Shown here: piece by piece, positions 36,467 through 41,672 of the stretch | How positions within the stretch are numbered: position 1 is the first letter of the stretch | Layout of the letters: every line of letters begins with the position of its first letter | Assembly: GCA_938034385.1 (NCBI GenBank) | Contig: CALHLC010000054.1 | Coordinates: 1 to 41,672, forward strand | Origin: an uncultured Bacteriovoracaceae bacterium | Lineage (GTDB): Bacteria; Bdellovibrionota; Bacteriovoracia; Bacteriovoracales; Bacteriovoracaceae | Direction of reading: 5' to 3' | Length of the DNA: 41,672 bases | Position numbers and translations under genes: made by a program | Notes under the pieces: model-generated | The model's database searches: none | Seen by the model: only the letters and a program-made list of their open reading frames with translations | Told to the model about the DNA's origin: nothing

Positions 36467-37486
36467 TTACTTAGAAGCTAAGATTAATGCATTGTATGCA
36501 TTTAACTTTCCACCCTGAGACTTTCCACTAAAAAGACTCTTATGAGTAGAACTTTTGATGATAAGTTCTTTAATCGTTTCAACATCTAAGTTTGGATTTG
36601 AAGCTAAAAGCATTGCTGCAACACCGGAAACAAATGCTGTAGCTTGGCTCGTTCCGCTCATAGTGTATGAACCTTTTATATGAGAAGACTCAATTGATTT
36701 ACCAGGAGCCATTATATGAACTGTATCAACTCCGTAATTTGATCTATTGAAAAATTCAAGATTTTTATCATAAGCTCCAACACTTAAGATATTTGAAGAT
36801 CTATAGCTAGCAGGAAAGTATCTATTTTTTCTTATATCAATATTTTTCCCATCATTTCCTGAAGCTGCTACGATAAGGATATTTTTTCTTTTTGCAAGGT
36901 CAATAAGTTTTTTCTCTCTTACCATTAATTCGTGCTTTGCGACCTTACCACCACCAGAGTAGTTGATAATATCTACATTACTTTTGATAGCAAATTCTAA
37001 AGCTTTTAAAAGATTAATCATATTATCATCACCTGAAGCTTTCTCATTATAAAATTTAACTGGTAAGAACTTAGCTACTGGAAATACTGATTTGATAATT
37101 CCTGTTACGTGAGTTCCATGTCCATGATTATCAAAAGGAGTGTAAGAAATCTTGTCAGTTTTATAAGCGTTAGAAAAATCTCTTCCGAAATTTTTTGTTG
37201 TTGCTTTAGCAAATCTACCGTTAACGATAGTGAAGATATTTTTATTTAAAAACGAATGTTGTGGATCAATACCAGTATCAATAATAGCAATTCTTGGAAT
37301 TCTTTTTACTTTTAAACCTTGAAGTGCTTCGAAGGCCTTGATCCCACCTATTCCAGCTTTTGTTCCCCAAGAGCTAAAGTTTGAGTGAGTTGCTAAATAA
37401 GCAAGCTTCTTTGTCACTTGTAACTCGTTAGCAGTTGCAAGATTGATTAGATTGATAAAAAGTAAAAGTGATATTAAAAGTTTCAT
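36467..37486 (-). CDS. Exported subtilisin-like serine protease (S8 family)
   Basis: The gene encodes 339 residues from the chosen ATG. It has a signal peptide (KLLISLLLFINLINLATA) and a short pro-region with no obvious I9 inhibitor domain. The S8 triad is in order: Asp70 in IAIIDTGID, His123 in HGHGTHVTG, Ser280 in MSGTSQATAF. The oxyanion Asn is in AASGNDG. I took the ATG at 37486 because the signal peptide begins there and GGGGG lies four bases upstream. The upstream in-frame ATG at 37516 would put 10 polar residues before it. It is a single gene; the 200 bases downstream separate it from the metalloprotease. Confidence 0.9.
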   Translation of the reverse strand: MKLLISLLLFINLINLATANELQVTKKLAYLATHSNFSSWGTKAGIGGIKAFEALQGLKVKRIPRIAIIDTGIDPQHSFLNKNIFTIVNGRFAKATTKNFGRDFSNAYKTDKISYTPFDNHGHGTHVTGIIKSVFPVAKFLPVKFYNEKASGDDNMINLLKALEFAIKSNVDIINYSGGGKVAKHELMVREKKLIDLAKRKNILIVAASGNDGKNIDIRKNRYFPASYRSSNILSVGAYDKNLEFFNRSNYGVDTVHIMAPGKSIESSHIKGSYTMSGTSQATAFVSGVAAMLLASNPNLDVETIKELIIKSSTHKSLFSGKSQGGKLNAYNALILASK

Positions 37487-37602
37487 TTTGCCCCCAAAAT
37501 TATTCCCTACAATCATTTTAAATGAGTGGGCTATATGAAAGAGCTTAAAGATGCAAGTTTTAAGAGATTTTAAGTAGTTAGCTAAAAGGAGGATGAAAAA
37601 AT

Positions 37603-37657: not shown

Positions 37658-39829
37658 TTAGACTGGAATAAAGTGAACAAAGAGTCCTATATAGAAATCT
37701 CCATCAAATCTCTGTCTTCTTCCATGTGCAAGTCGAGCACTTTCATATAATACCATTTCACCAGGTTCCATTAAAATCTGAGATTCCTTTTTTTCATGAT
37801 TAAAAATATCCAAAGGCCAAAGAGTATCAGATTTATGATCAACACAAATGGTTGCACTAATCACATGGGTTTGAAGACGATCGACATGCATCTTTAACCT
37901 AGATCCTCTTCTATAAGATCTAAAACCATAGGTTGCAGTAGAAGCTAAATTTCTTCCACTCCATTGCTCTAAGATTTTCCTAATATCATCAGTGACTCTT
38001 GATCTTGTTTCTTCATCTATTGGAGAAAAGAGAGTTCCGACACTAAAATCTGTACTATCTATATGTCCTCTAATACCAGCATCTTCTGGATCATCAGAAA
38101 CCATACAATATTCATCTTTAAAGTGATCCTTTGCTTCTTCATAAGAGCTTTGAATTAACTTCCAAGTGCTAGAAGGAATAGTGATTTTCTTAAATCCCTC
38201 ATTCGTAAAAATGGGAACATCACTTACTTTTTGATAATCTTCCCTAGATTTTAATGTTTTTTTATCACTAAAGACTAAATCATTTTGTGAAAATTGATCA
38301 ATCTCTTTGGTCTGATTTTGTTTTGAAAGTAATTCTTTTGAACGTTGCTCAAAATCTTGAGGTGAATAAGTTAATGGTTTTGGATGGTAGTAGGGGAATT
38401 GTCTGTACCACTTTGTAATTATATATTTCTTCCCTTTTTTTACTGGCAACCCAGCATGAAGAGTATCAAATTTTTGATTACCATATATATCTATATTTTT
38501 CCAAAAAACTGCCATTCCTGGTTCTGGCTTAATGAGTAAACTATGATCAGGGAATTCTGTTTCCCCGCCTTCCTCAACATGATTTAAAAAGACCATTAAT
38601 GACCAAGTTCTATCACCTTGAACGGCGAAACGCTCATCTCCTTCTGGATTATGAAAGAAATCATGATGATGTTTGAATTCCTCACCAACTTCATATACTT
38701 GACCTTGTACTCCCTCTGAAAATGAAGGATGAATTCCTAAAAATGCTGATAACTTATTATTAATTGACTGGATAAATGGATCATCATTATTAAAGTATGC
38801 TGAACTACTTGTTCTATGTTGAGAATACTCAGTTTTTCCTGCTCCAACTACAACTGTAGATTTTTGCTTATGTTCATCTATTATTTTAATTAATTGCTGA
38901 CATTCTGTATTAGATAAAACTCCATGTTCATGAAGAATTTCAGTAGGAGGTCGTTTACAAATCTCTTGCCCCCCTTGTCCATGAGAATTGTCTAACTGGG
39001 GTTGGCTCATTTGTATATTATTATCTCCCTTGGCCCTTTCTCTAAACCACTTAGTCATAATATATTTTTCCCCATCTAAGATTGGTTCACCAGTGTGTCT
39101 TAAATCATGATCTGGATTTCCATAGAGATCTAAATTTTTCCACATTACGGCCATTCCCTTTTTTGGAGAAATACGTTTGTTTAGTCTTGGGAAAAATGTA
39201 TCGCCTCCCTTCTTTACATCGTTAAGATATATCATGAATGTTGTTGTTCTATTTCCTTGCTCTTTGCAGTTAGCTTCGTAGCCTTTTCCTTCAAACCAAT
39301 CTGTATGTTCCTTAAATTCTTGACCAACATCATAATATTGTCCTTGAATTTTCTCTCCTTGATTATATTTTTCATTTGCAGCATTACATATTTTTTCATC
39401 TAGATTTTTAATGAAATCTAAGTCGGTTTCATTTATATAACATGTAGAACTTGTTCTGAAATGAGAGTATTCATCTTTACCTTCAGCATTAACTGTTTGT
39501 GACCTTACTTTATTCTTTGAAATATAATCTATAAATTGCTCACATTCGTTATCATTTAGGAAATTCTCTAAGATATATAGTTTATTAGGGTGAACCTCTT
39601 TTATGAAATAATTATGTTCTTTAGTTTGAGTTTGAGAGGTAGGGATGTTTTGTGTTTGTGTTGTTTGAACACCCTGCGGTTGATTGTTTTTTAGCTCTTT
39701 TATTTCGTTCGTTAGTTGTTCTATTTTTTCTAGAATAGGATCAGAGTTTATGGTGATAGAGCTTTGGATGTTTTTATCTTCACTCTCTTCTTCAAAGTTT
39801 TTCAGAACATTAATTAAACTTTTAAACAT
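37658..39829 (-). CDS. Triple-domain 2-oxoglutarate/Fe(II) hydroxylase (two prolyl-4-hydroxylase-like domains plus a third 2OG domain)
   Basis: This 723-residue protein has no signal peptide. Residues 1-50 are helical and 51-72 a Gln/Thr-rich linker. Domain 1 (about 80-265) has His175-x-Asp177, His245 and Lys255. Domain 2 (about 295-475) has His388-x-Asp390, His458 and Lys468. Both are P4H-like and share EYS-HRTSS, QGQ-Y-VG-EFK, PGMAV/KGMAV-WKN and KY-TKW segments, so they look like a tandem duplication. A spacer (475-540) leads to domain 3 (about 543-723), a different 2OG fold with KMHVDR (His648, Asp650), His702 in ARLAHGRR and GDFY-GLFVHF at the end. All three keep the 2-His-1-carboxylate iron site, so all may be active. 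AGGAG lies inside the last codons of the upstream gene, so the two are translationally coupled. Substrate unknown: protein side chains or a small molecule. Confidence 0.85.
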   Translation of the reverse strand: MFKSLINVLKNFEEESEDKNIQSSITINSDPILEKIEQLTNEIKELKNNQPQGVQTTQTQNIPTSQTQTKEHNYFIKEVHPNKLYILENFLNDNECEQFIDYISKNKVRSQTVNAEGKDEYSHFRTSSTCYINETDLDFIKNLDEKICNAANEKYNQGEKIQGQYYDVGQEFKEHTDWFEGKGYEANCKEQGNRTTTFMIYLNDVKKGGDTFFPRLNKRISPKKGMAVMWKNLDLYGNPDHDLRHTGEPILDGEKYIMTKWFRERAKGDNNIQMSQPQLDNSHGQGGQEICKRPPTEILHEHGVLSNTECQQLIKIIDEHKQKSTVVVGAGKTEYSQHRTSSSAYFNNDDPFIQSINNKLSAFLGIHPSFSEGVQGQVYEVGEEFKHHHDFFHNPEGDERFAVQGDRTWSLMVFLNHVEEGGETEFPDHSLLIKPEPGMAVFWKNIDIYGNQKFDTLHAGLPVKKGKKYIITKWYRQFPYYHPKPLTYSPQDFEQRSKELLSKQNQTKEIDQFSQNDLVFSDKKTLKSREDYQKVSDVPIFTNEGFKKITIPSSTWKLIQSSYEEAKDHFKDEYCMVSDDPEDAGIRGHIDSTDFSVGTLFSPIDEETRSRVTDDIRKILEQWSGRNLASTATYGFRSYRRGSRLKMHVDRLQTHVISATICVDHKSDTLWPLDIFNHEKKESQILMEPGEMVLYESARLAHGRRQRFDGDFYIGLFVHFIPV

Positions 39830-39831
39830 CT

Positions 39832-40929
39832 TTATCTCCTTGCCTGAAGACTTTTAGGGAGGTAATGAACATAAATATATCTAGAAAACTCTCCATCTAA
39901 TCTTTCAGGAAACCCGTATTCTAACTTGGCACCTTCATAAAAACACATTGAACCTGGTGGAAAGTCTACTTGTTGAGTTTCTCCTGATCTGACTTGGAAA
40001 GTTAATGGCCAAGATTTATTAGAGATTTCGTCGACTTTAATTAGCACACTTATAATATTGCATTCTAGATTATCTCTAGAGTATTGAGTTTGTGTACCCC
40101 TCCGAAAACTTCTGATACCAAATGTGTTAACTGGTTCAAGTTGTTCTTTTGACCAAGCTTCAGCTAAAGGGAGAAGATCTATTAATAACTGAGTTCTTAA
40201 TGAATCCGAAATAAATGCTGTTGCAGTTGCAATAGAGAAAATATTCGAATCAAATAGAGTTTCGAGACTAGAATTAGAATCAGATTCATATTCATCGGAA
40301 AAGCTATTTTTTAATCTATTATATTCTTGTGTGATATTAGTCCAGGTTTTTTCAGGAACTGTGAATACTTCAAATCCTTTTTGAGTGTACAGAGGAAGAT
40401 TATCAAGGTTTTTAATGATGGATACTTTTGGTAGATCAGTACTTCCAGCATTATCACTAGATTTTTTTCCACAACTAATAGCAAGGACATACTTATCTTC
40501 AGCTAAATCAGGAGACTCATGAATGATAGGAGAGACAACTCTCGTATTCCAATAAAGAAGCATTCCTGATTCTGGTCTAATTCTCAAATCAAAATCAGGC
40601 AAAAAAGTGTCTGAGAAGTGATCATTGATACTATTTAAAAAGACCATATAGAATTGATTACATGCTAAGTGATCTTGATTTAAATCTTCATTATTCAGAT
40701 TTAAAATTTGAAAATTTATATCACTTCTGTTGGTGTCTTGTAATTCAGGGAGATTACTTAAAATAGTATCTTGAGAAATAAGGTCTTGATCCCATTCATT
40801 ATCAAGTATTGCTTGGGCCTGATTAGTACTCATGAAAATATGAAGATGTTTAAATGGTAAGTTTTTCTCTTTTTTACACATTTCTTGAGATTGAGGAATA
40901 GGAAAAACAAAGTTTGGTTCTTGTTGCAT
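39832..40929 (-). CDS. Degenerate partner of the triple 2OG hydroxylase (probable pseudoenzyme)
   Basis: The 365 residues align with the last two domains of the downstream gene. FYMVFLNS, IRPESGMLLYWN, and a KYVLA after a surviving His137 mark the end of a P4H-like domain. Its front half, with the HxD pair and the HRTSS segment, is missing or unrecognisable. The second part follows domain 3 closely (YTQKGFEVFTVPEKTW; TFGIRSFRRG; SWPL; GEFSRYIYVHYLP). The iron ligands are changed: HVD became Ser284-Arg285-Asp286, and the distal His became Tyr338. Fold kept and metal lost suggest a scaffold or regulatory subunit. No ribosome site precedes the ATG, but a promoter lies directly upstream. The stop is two bases from the next start. 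Confidence 0.75.
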   Translation of the reverse strand: MQQEPNFVFPIPQSQEMCKKEKNLPFKHLHIFMSTNQAQAILDNEWDQDLISQDTILSNLPELQDTNRSDINFQILNLNNEDLNQDHLACNQFYMVFLNSINDHFSDTFLPDFDLRIRPESGMLLYWNTRVVSPIIHESPDLAEDKYVLAISCGKKSSDNAGSTDLPKVSIIKNLDNLPLYTQKGFEVFTVPEKTWTNITQEYNRLKNSFSDEYESDSNSSLETLFDSNIFSIATATAFISDSLRTQLLIDLLPLAEAWSKEQLEPVNTFGIRSFRRGTQTQYSRDNLECNIISVLIKVDEISNKSWPLTFQVRSGETQQVDFPPGSMCFYEGAKLEYGFPERLDGEFSRYIYVHYLPKSLQARR

Positions 40930-41011: not shown

Positions 41012-41527
41012 TTAATCGAGCTGGTATTTATTGGTATAGTCTTGAGCTAGCGATTGATTTTGTTCATGCTTATATAAAATTTGATTTCCACATACTAAAA
41101 CATCTAAATTCGTTCCCATAAAGCAATGAAATGCGTCTTCAGGAGTACAGACAATTGGCTCACCTCTTACATTGAAACTAGTATTTACTAGGATTGGACA
41201 CCCTGTGAATTCATAAAATTTATCTATCAATTGATGATATTTTCTATTGGTTTCCTTATGAACAGTTTGGACTCTTGCTGAATAGTCTACATGAGTAATT
41301 GCGGGAACCTCTGACTTCACAATGTTTAGCTTTTCTATTCCAAAAAGTTTTTGCTCCTGTGAAGACATGGGAATTTGTTTGTCATCATGTACATCTGAAA
41401 CCAATAACATATAAGGGCTATCAGTTTTAAGGTTAAACCAAGATGTTAAGTGTTCTATTAAGATAGAAGGGGCAAATGGTCGAAAAGATTCTCTAAATTT
41501 AACTTTTAAATTTAGCTCCTTTTGCAT
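41012..41527 (-). pseudogene. Carbamoyltransferase, C-terminal part only (5' part cut by IS element)
   Basis: These 171 residues match the C-terminal domain of the NodU/CmcH-type O-carbamoyltransferases. They begin with LNLKVKFRESFRPFAPSIL and SPYMLLVSDV and continue with ITHVDYSARVQTV and ILVNTSFNVRGEPIV, then end in a DAFHCFMGTNLDVLV segment. Intact members have about 550-610 residues, with an ASKHA-fold domain first that forms carbamoyl adenylate. That domain is absent here. The frame begins within a few bases of what looks like the end of an IS3-type element, so I infer insertion into the gene. The rest should lie beyond the window. It is upstream of, and on the same strand as, the 2OG hydroxylase pair, so the pathway may have included carbamoylation. 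Confidence 0.8.
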
Positions 41528-41532
41528 ATGTG

Positions 41533-41672
41533 TGACCTTTCCCCCTTATTTCATACCACTATCAAACTCGGTTTAACATAGTTTTTTTCTATTTTTATAA
41601 TTTTAGCTTTTGGTGCAGGAGGTCTGTAATTCAATGAACTATGTGGCCTATAATGATTGTAATGATACACCC
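41533..41672 (-). mobile_element. IS3-family insertion sequence, terminal part
   Basis: The element runs off the right edge. Its proposed end is TGACCTTTCCCCC (41533-41545), with the TG start and C-rich inverted-repeat style of IS3-family ends. Six bases inside this, the reverse strand holds the stop of a transposase frame. The carbamoyltransferase frame resumes a few bases outside. The other end and the target duplication are not in the window. Confidence 0.7.
41551..41672 (-). CDS. IS3-family transposase OrfB, C-terminal part (partial)
   Basis: On the minus strand the last 39 codons read VYHYNHYRPHSSLNYRPPAP, then a Lys/Ile-rich tail and a TGA (41553-41551). YN..RPHSSL.Y.PPAP is the well-known end of the rve (DDE) integrase core in IS3-group transposases. 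The gene continues past the window edge. It has no frameshift in the visible part, so the element may be intact. Confidence 0.85.
   Translation of the reverse strand, partial: VYHYNHYRPHSSLNYRPPAPKAKIIKIEKNYVKPSLIVV

Follow-up and report, generated by a model that had tools for sequence, protein, structure and literature searches.

Genes at the locus

Close to the end of the window (the whole stretch of 41,672 nucleotides analysed here) lies a gene for a 723-residue protein with three domains of the 2-oxoglutarate (2OG)/Fe(II) oxygenase type, arranged P4H-P4H-D3. It is preceded on the same strand by a second oxygenase-family gene, a carbamoyltransferase fragment and the end of an insertion sequence. 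In the following list and below, G000 is the window's own genome and G003 a sister species of the same genus (Bacteriovoracaceae MAG CALIJZ01).

37658..39829, minus strand: triple 2OG/Fe(II)-type oxygenase gene (P4H-P4H-D3), 723 aa, ATG start; two PF13640 matches; orthologue in G003
39587..39829, minus strand: N-terminal region, aa 1-81, glutamine/threonine-rich tether; 41% identity between species
39026..39586, minus strand: D1, aa 82-268, P4H-like, H175/D177/H245, 2OG Lys K255; PF13640 and solved P4Hs
38378..38947, minus strand: D2, aa 295-484, P4H-like, H388/D390/H458, 2OG Lys K468; PF13640 and phrog_61
37661..38239, minus strand: D3, aa 531-723, third DSBH domain, H648/D650/H702; phrog_2954, AF2 model and alignment (n=31)
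39832..40929, minus strand: pseudo-oxygenase, 365 aa, with a degenerate P4H-like and a D3-like part; D3 homology, orthologue in G003
41012..41527, minus strand: carbamoyltransferase of the NodU/CmcH type, C-terminal 171 aa only; PF16861, 2.8e-51
41551..41670, minus strand: IS transposase, C-terminal part only, at the contig edge; rve_3 5.7e-4, below the curated cut-off

Stops run throughout the plus strand over 37658-39829, opposite the open reading frame (ORF) of the triple gene, and a search for RNA families and tRNAs across the window found none. A sequence-only reading had described three H-x-D...H triads in one chain, and all nine residues were found exactly at the positions listed above. 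A survey of domain order in related genomes retrieved the same P4H-P4H-D3 ORF in G003, at 70% identity. An assembly or sequencing error joining separate genes is therefore ruled out. Identity between the two proteins amounts to 72-78% in the three domains and 40-50% in the tail and linkers.

The two P4H-like domains

Profile searching of D1 and D2, as the sequence-only reading had suggested, gave two PF13640 matches in the 723-aa protein (E 1.1e-32, 113.3 bits), above the curated Pfam cut-off of 27, the best stretch lying in D2 at aa 375-476. D2 also matches phrog_61 (1.4e-54), and with the whole protein phmmer retrieved solved P4Hs of bacteria, human, algae and viruses (best 2.6e-28). In both domains the 2OG-binding Lys takes its usual +10 place after the distal His (K255 in D1, K468 in D2). 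They are 40% identical to each other, and thus no nearer to one another than to a separate two-domain paralogue described below (46% for D1, 43% for D2). Their grouping in the tree has a support of only 47/71, and a duplication is neither shown nor rejected by this tree, in which the window's D1 and D2 branches have about double the length of the G003 branches.

Fold and metal site of the third domain

The assignment of the third domain to a different family is supported; D3 has no PF13640 match and is a DSBH fold by model. The Pfam scan of the D3 region found no family; the aspartyl/asparaginyl hydroxylase model gave no match in these scans, whose sensitivity is limited. The free-standing D3 of cyanophage S-SCSM1 scores 17.1 bits against PF13640, below the cut-off of 27. 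The D3 region does match phrog_2954 (6.7e-18), a phage family which, like phrog_3531, carries the PHROGs label 'ferrochelatase'. Judged by the fold of D3, which is that of a 2OG oxygenase-type domain, the label is wrong.

The structural evidence comes from an AlphaFold (AF2) model built from 31 relatives (mean pLDDT 92.7, pTM 0.88). Structure prediction, also advised by the first reading, yielded a prolyl-hydroxylase-type DSBH fold, which aligns with PHD2, Pseudomonas P4H, PBCV-1 vCPH and others with Z 14-15 along the entire domain, residues 9-193 (Foldseek, VIA-align), the Foldseek E being about 2e-7 for PHD2 and bacterial P4Hs. The best structural matches include PHD2 and the Pseudomonas enzyme solved with EF-Tu. 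Fold alone connects D3 to the P4Hs: hhalign of D3 against P4H profiles gave no link (0.1% probability), and the D3 profile retrieved a single chance-level match from PDB sequences.

Six residues are invariant in all 31 aligned D3 sequences, namely H648, D650, H702, R704, R637 and H655. The triad is thus no chance motif. The 2OG anchor looks different. After the distal His of the triple protein, the +10 position is occupied by F712 and the +12 position by I714; an Arg is found at +12 in 24/31 relatives, and this is the position of Arg230 in OGFOD1 (His218+12; PMC4396695). The earlier description of three 'full' sites therefore stands for the iron triads of D1, D2 and D3, but D3 has a Phe at the +10 position of the 2OG-binding Lys. 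The iron site of D3 is thus complete and its 2OG anchor non-canonical, R704 or R637 being candidate residues that could bind 2OG instead.

Could D1 and D2 then be the only catalytic domains, with D3 iron-binding, 2OG-incompetent and used for substrate binding, a role proposed for the C-terminal DSBH of OGFOD1/Tpa1p? The residues at +10 and +12, where P4Hs have Lys and OGFOD1 has Arg, would fit such a role, as would the absence from the triple protein of the Arg that most relatives keep and the neighbouring gene, in which the D3 fold persists without a metal site. We nevertheless consider it somewhat doubtful, given that H648, D650, H702 and R704 are invariant in the 31 sequences while the second domain of OGFOD1 has lost its metal site, and that R704 or R637 may take over 2OG binding.

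The pseudo-oxygenase and the upstream genes

The C-terminal part of the neighbouring 365-residue protein is 34% identical to D3 and matches the D3 profile at 1.4e-46. Its iron site is incomplete, the HxD motif becoming SxD (S284/D286) and the distal His becoming Y338. In the P4H part, the HxD stretch is missing and only the equivalents of the distal His and of the Lys are left; this N-terminal assignment is the weaker one (hhalign probability 48%, E 2.9e-5). The model follows the same division, with a confidence mostly of 87-98 in the D3 part and a pLDDT of about 30-70 in the P4H part. The ORF is intact in G003, at 59% identity, and is separated from the triple gene by a 2-nucleotide gap in both species. 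Its sequence makes it a candidate bacterial pseudo-2OG-oxygenase subunit.

Further upstream, the carbamoyltransferase fragment is 89% identical to residues 438-611 of an intact 611-aa gene that occupies the same place in G003. In the window it is cut by the IS end, and the contig finishes at 41672. G003 shows a one-strand order of membrane protein, B12-type radical SAM, SDR, SGNH, SxtJ, carbamoyltransferase, pseudo-oxygenase and triple oxygenase. A search of the window's own genome for two genes of this upstream cluster found no other carbamoyltransferase copy and no radical SAM homologue.

Distribution and the wider P4H-D3 family

At E <= 1e-10, among 59 relatives, only G003 gave matches besides the window's own genome. 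These two genomes are also the only ones of 369 from the phylum with a strong D3 match, two further genomes of this set giving weak ones (5e-9 and 7e-8). Both species carry in addition a two-domain P4H-D3 paralogue of 409-410 aa, between parB and ATP synthase genes. The subtilase adjacent to the triple gene (window 36467-37516) is 97% identical between the species versus 59-70% for the oxygenase pair (37658-40929), and the pair thus evolves much faster than this neighbour.

Outside the phylum, D3 was found in at least 78 viral contigs, two Colwellia and one Bowmanella, the same search retrieving G003. Four architectures occur among the matches listed: D3 alone, P4H-D3, an O-FucT-D3 fusion and P4H-P4H-D3. 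The last is restricted, among these matches, to the window and G003; the collection scans were pattern-based, the one of cellular genomes giving five loci, and this uniqueness of the triple form applies to the sequences searched. A P4H-led scan of viruses listed 80 ORFs, 68 with P4H-D3 and 12 with P4H alone, and none of these 80 carried two P4Hs. Where D3 is free-standing, its neighbours often include an independent PF13640 oxygenase, an O-FucT and a carbamoyltransferase, cyanophage S-SCSM1 being one example, and D3 adjoins a carbamoyltransferase in several viruses. Since 68/80 of the listed viral P4H ORFs carry D3, and since free D3 is often found beside a PF13640 oxygenase, P4H and D3 belong together, and across the wider family P4H is usually accompanied by D3.

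Glycosyltransferases recur at these loci. O-FucT (PF10250) is encoded downstream of some viral P4H-D3 genes, and the viral 632-aa ORFs of L077, L081, L086, L087 and L089 join it to D3 in a single polypeptide. Three viral P4H-D3 loci (L066, L022, L074) have both O-FucT and PF11397 'GlcNAc', a family to which the Skp1 hydroxyproline GlcNAc-transferase belongs. O-FucT and PF11397 gave no match in four bacterial genomes, the window's own included, where the controls were likewise silent. Next to viral P4H-D3 genes, the large ORFs code for structural proteins of the virion and for a muzzle protein of the crAss-like type.

Two side observations concern this family. The Bowmanella homologue (L103:7293-8552) has an intact D3 triad and a degenerate P4H region, which makes two instances of domain decay within the family. 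A large terminase gene beside D3 in marine viral contigs (L051:7137-9482) contains an apparent intein (Intein_splicing 6e-7, Vint 8.5e-6, both below the curated cut-offs).

Proline-rich repeats

Pro-rich repeats were found in a same-strand ORF, usually the adjacent gene, at 10/14 non-redundant P4H-D3 clusters versus 0/14 P4H-less D3 clusters (Fisher p 1.5e-4), the repeat-bearing viral clusters being largely related crAss-like phages. A second scan, whose set partly overlaps the first, gave 7/11. The repeats are of the types (TP)n, (SPTP)n, (PPT)n or PPTPPT, and (VPP)n. In Colwellia, the neighbour of the P4H-D3 gene has a (TP)n linker and resembles alginate lyase in sequence.

Such tracts also occur in G000 and G003, each with several proteins that contain long PTPNPTPNP or SPTPTSPTP stretches, some ending in a short Cys-rich C-terminus. 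They are found in these two genomes only:

L173:3-278, L174:130-348, L171:2-394, L172:2-403 and L191:4233-4832: (PTPNP)n / (SPTPTSP)n proteins

Most of these genes lie at contig ends, the assemblies breaking inside or beside the repeats. The DNA motif for TPNPTP gave 13 hits in G000 and 31 in G003; of the other 114 genomes, which include G001 and G002 of the same genus, six have one occurrence each and the rest none. All these associations are correlative. The (PTPNP)n genes do not adjoin the oxygenase genes in either species, and because G000 and G003 are sister species, the co-occurrence of repeats and oxygenases counts as a single evolutionary event. The earlier suggestion of a repetitive protein substrate has thus gained indirect support, from the repeats adjoining P4H-D3 genes and from the confinement of multi-copy (PTPNP)n tracts to oxygenase-bearing genomes.

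MnmE was also considered as a substrate. The gene mnmE is close to that of the two-domain paralogue, and in both species MnmE has Pro-rich 8-residue repeats, encoded by 24-nt tandem repeats (L006:5032-5179, L015:15012-15197) as GPIEPLSS-like or GPIGPNPS-like octapeptides. The MnmE proteins of several further Bacteriovoracaceae, relatives without these oxygenases among them, also have GPIEP/GPIGP motifs, and the link with MnmE was therefore dropped.

Proposed function and alternatives

The reading we favour, with a probability of roughly one half, is that the triple gene would encode a multi-site protein hydroxylase of Pro-rich repeats. D1 and D2 would hydroxylate prolines in a Pro-rich repetitive protein; D3 would perform a second oxidation of the same protein or serve as an iron-binding docking domain; and the pseudo-oxygenase, with its D3 fold and lost iron ligands, would probably be a subunit that binds the substrate or acts as a scaffold. 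In relatives, glycosylation of the hydroxylated repeats, by transferases of the O-FucT or hydroxyproline-GlcNAc type, would probably follow. In the organism itself, the likeliest substrate class appears to be the (PTPNP)n/(SPTPTSP)n proteins of this genome and its sister. This marine bacterium is related to predatory bacteria, and its triple protein probably modifies the Pro-rich repeat proteins which, among close relatives, are encoded in quantity only by carriers of these genes.

The gene order in G003 points to another possibility. Both oxygenase-family genes end a one-strand cluster that looks biosynthetic, for a glycan or a small molecule, and the association of D3 with carbamoyltransferases extends to several viruses and cyanophage S-SCSM1. 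The protein could accordingly be a tailoring enzyme, its domains oxidising a glycan, lipid or small-molecule metabolite of the radical SAM/SDR/SGNH/SxtJ/carbamoyltransferase cluster. This appears unlikely, however: both oxygenase-family genes have stayed open in the window genome, although its carbamoyltransferase is cut and a radical SAM homologue was not found there; peptidyl prolyl hydroxylases are the nearest relatives of D1 and D2; and the neighbours of viral P4H-D3 genes encode Pro-rich and virion structural proteins, not enzymes of metabolite pathways. Given the radical SAM, SDR, SxtJ and carbamoyltransferase genes of G003, the substrate may also be a peptide natural product.

Known prolyl hydroxylases offer a further model, a fixed site in a conserved protein such as EF-Tu or a ribosomal protein, and the EF-Tu-complexed Pseudomonas enzyme and PHD2 are indeed among the best structural matches of D3. 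Three tandem domains with a pseudo-partner nevertheless suit many sites better than one, and the genes are missing from nearly all relatives, although EF-Tu is expected in all of them; a fixed site is thus quite improbable. Least likely of all is that the genes of the window species are relics decaying since an IS element removed the rest of the cluster: the cut carbamoyltransferase with the transposase end at the contig edge and the long D1 and D2 branches would agree with it, but the frame is open over all 723 aa with every triad complete, and the overall dN/dS of the triple gene is about 0.09, a value averaged across the two lineages and with dS close to saturation.

Comparison with known systems

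The folds and the chemistry discussed here are known; what is new is the architecture, a domain family outside Pfam and a conserved pseudoenzyme partner. In the literature library searched, there was no published description of the P4H-D3 or triple architecture or of the D3 'ferrochelatase' proteins, and nothing on prolyl hydroxylases of crAss-like phages or Bacteriovorax. The triple protein can be set beside several related systems. The solved PF13640 P4Hs (PDB 5iax, 3itq, 5hv0 and PBCV-1 vCPH 5c5t) resemble D1 and D2 in sequence, in the HxD...H triad and in the +10 Lys, but they are single-domain proteins, whereas two copies are joined here to a third family. The viral and Colwellia P4H-D3 proteins have the same two families in the same order as D2-D3, with one P4H instead of two; their loci often include a neighbouring gene for a Pro-rich repeat protein or a glycosyltransferase, and neither kind lies near the triple gene in the window.

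A structural study of 2015 described tandem DSBH domains in 2OG oxygenases as known only in eukaryotic uS12 hydroxylases, and most or all prokaryotic prolyl hydroxylases as single-domain (PMC4396695). These uS12 prolyl hydroxylases (OGFOD1, Tpa1p, Ofd1) share with the present protein a tandem arrangement in one chain and an N-terminal domain of the prolyl-hydroxylase type (PMC4396695). In OGFOD1/Tpa1p, however, there are two DSBH domains, the C-terminal one having no metal site (PMC4396695), and the group is confined to eukaryotes, whereas here there are three domains, all with complete triads, D3 keeping its three ligands. A prokaryotic protein with three DSBH domains and complete iron triads thus stands beside a two-domain family that is widespread in marine viruses.

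The Skp1 pathway consists of prolyl hydroxylation followed by sugar transfer (PMC11570480). The Skp1 prolyl hydroxylase and Gnt1 of Dictyostelium and Toxoplasma would offer the same hydroxylate-then-glycosylate logic, PF11397 being found beside some viral P4H-D3 genes; that system acts on a single site and belongs to eukaryotes, whereas the window genome gave no PF11397 match in a search whose control was silent. The link of these oxygenases with Pro-rich repeats and with hydroxyproline-type glycosyltransferases raises the question of whether hydroxyproline-rich glycoproteins exist in phages and bacteria. Plant and algal hydroxyproline-rich glycoproteins of the extensin type contain repeats of the SP/TP kind. 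It can be proposed, tentatively, that marine phages and a few bacteria would make extensin-like glycosylated hydroxyproline repeats by means of P4H-D3 proteins, and that Bacteriovoracaceae would do so with three iron sites and a dedicated pseudo-partner, in what might be the first prokaryotic prolyl hydroxylase with several catalytic domains. The likeness to extensin-type glycoproteins lies in the SP/TP repeats as likely hydroxylation sites; the difference is that the present proteins are bacterial and viral, and their hydroxylation putative.
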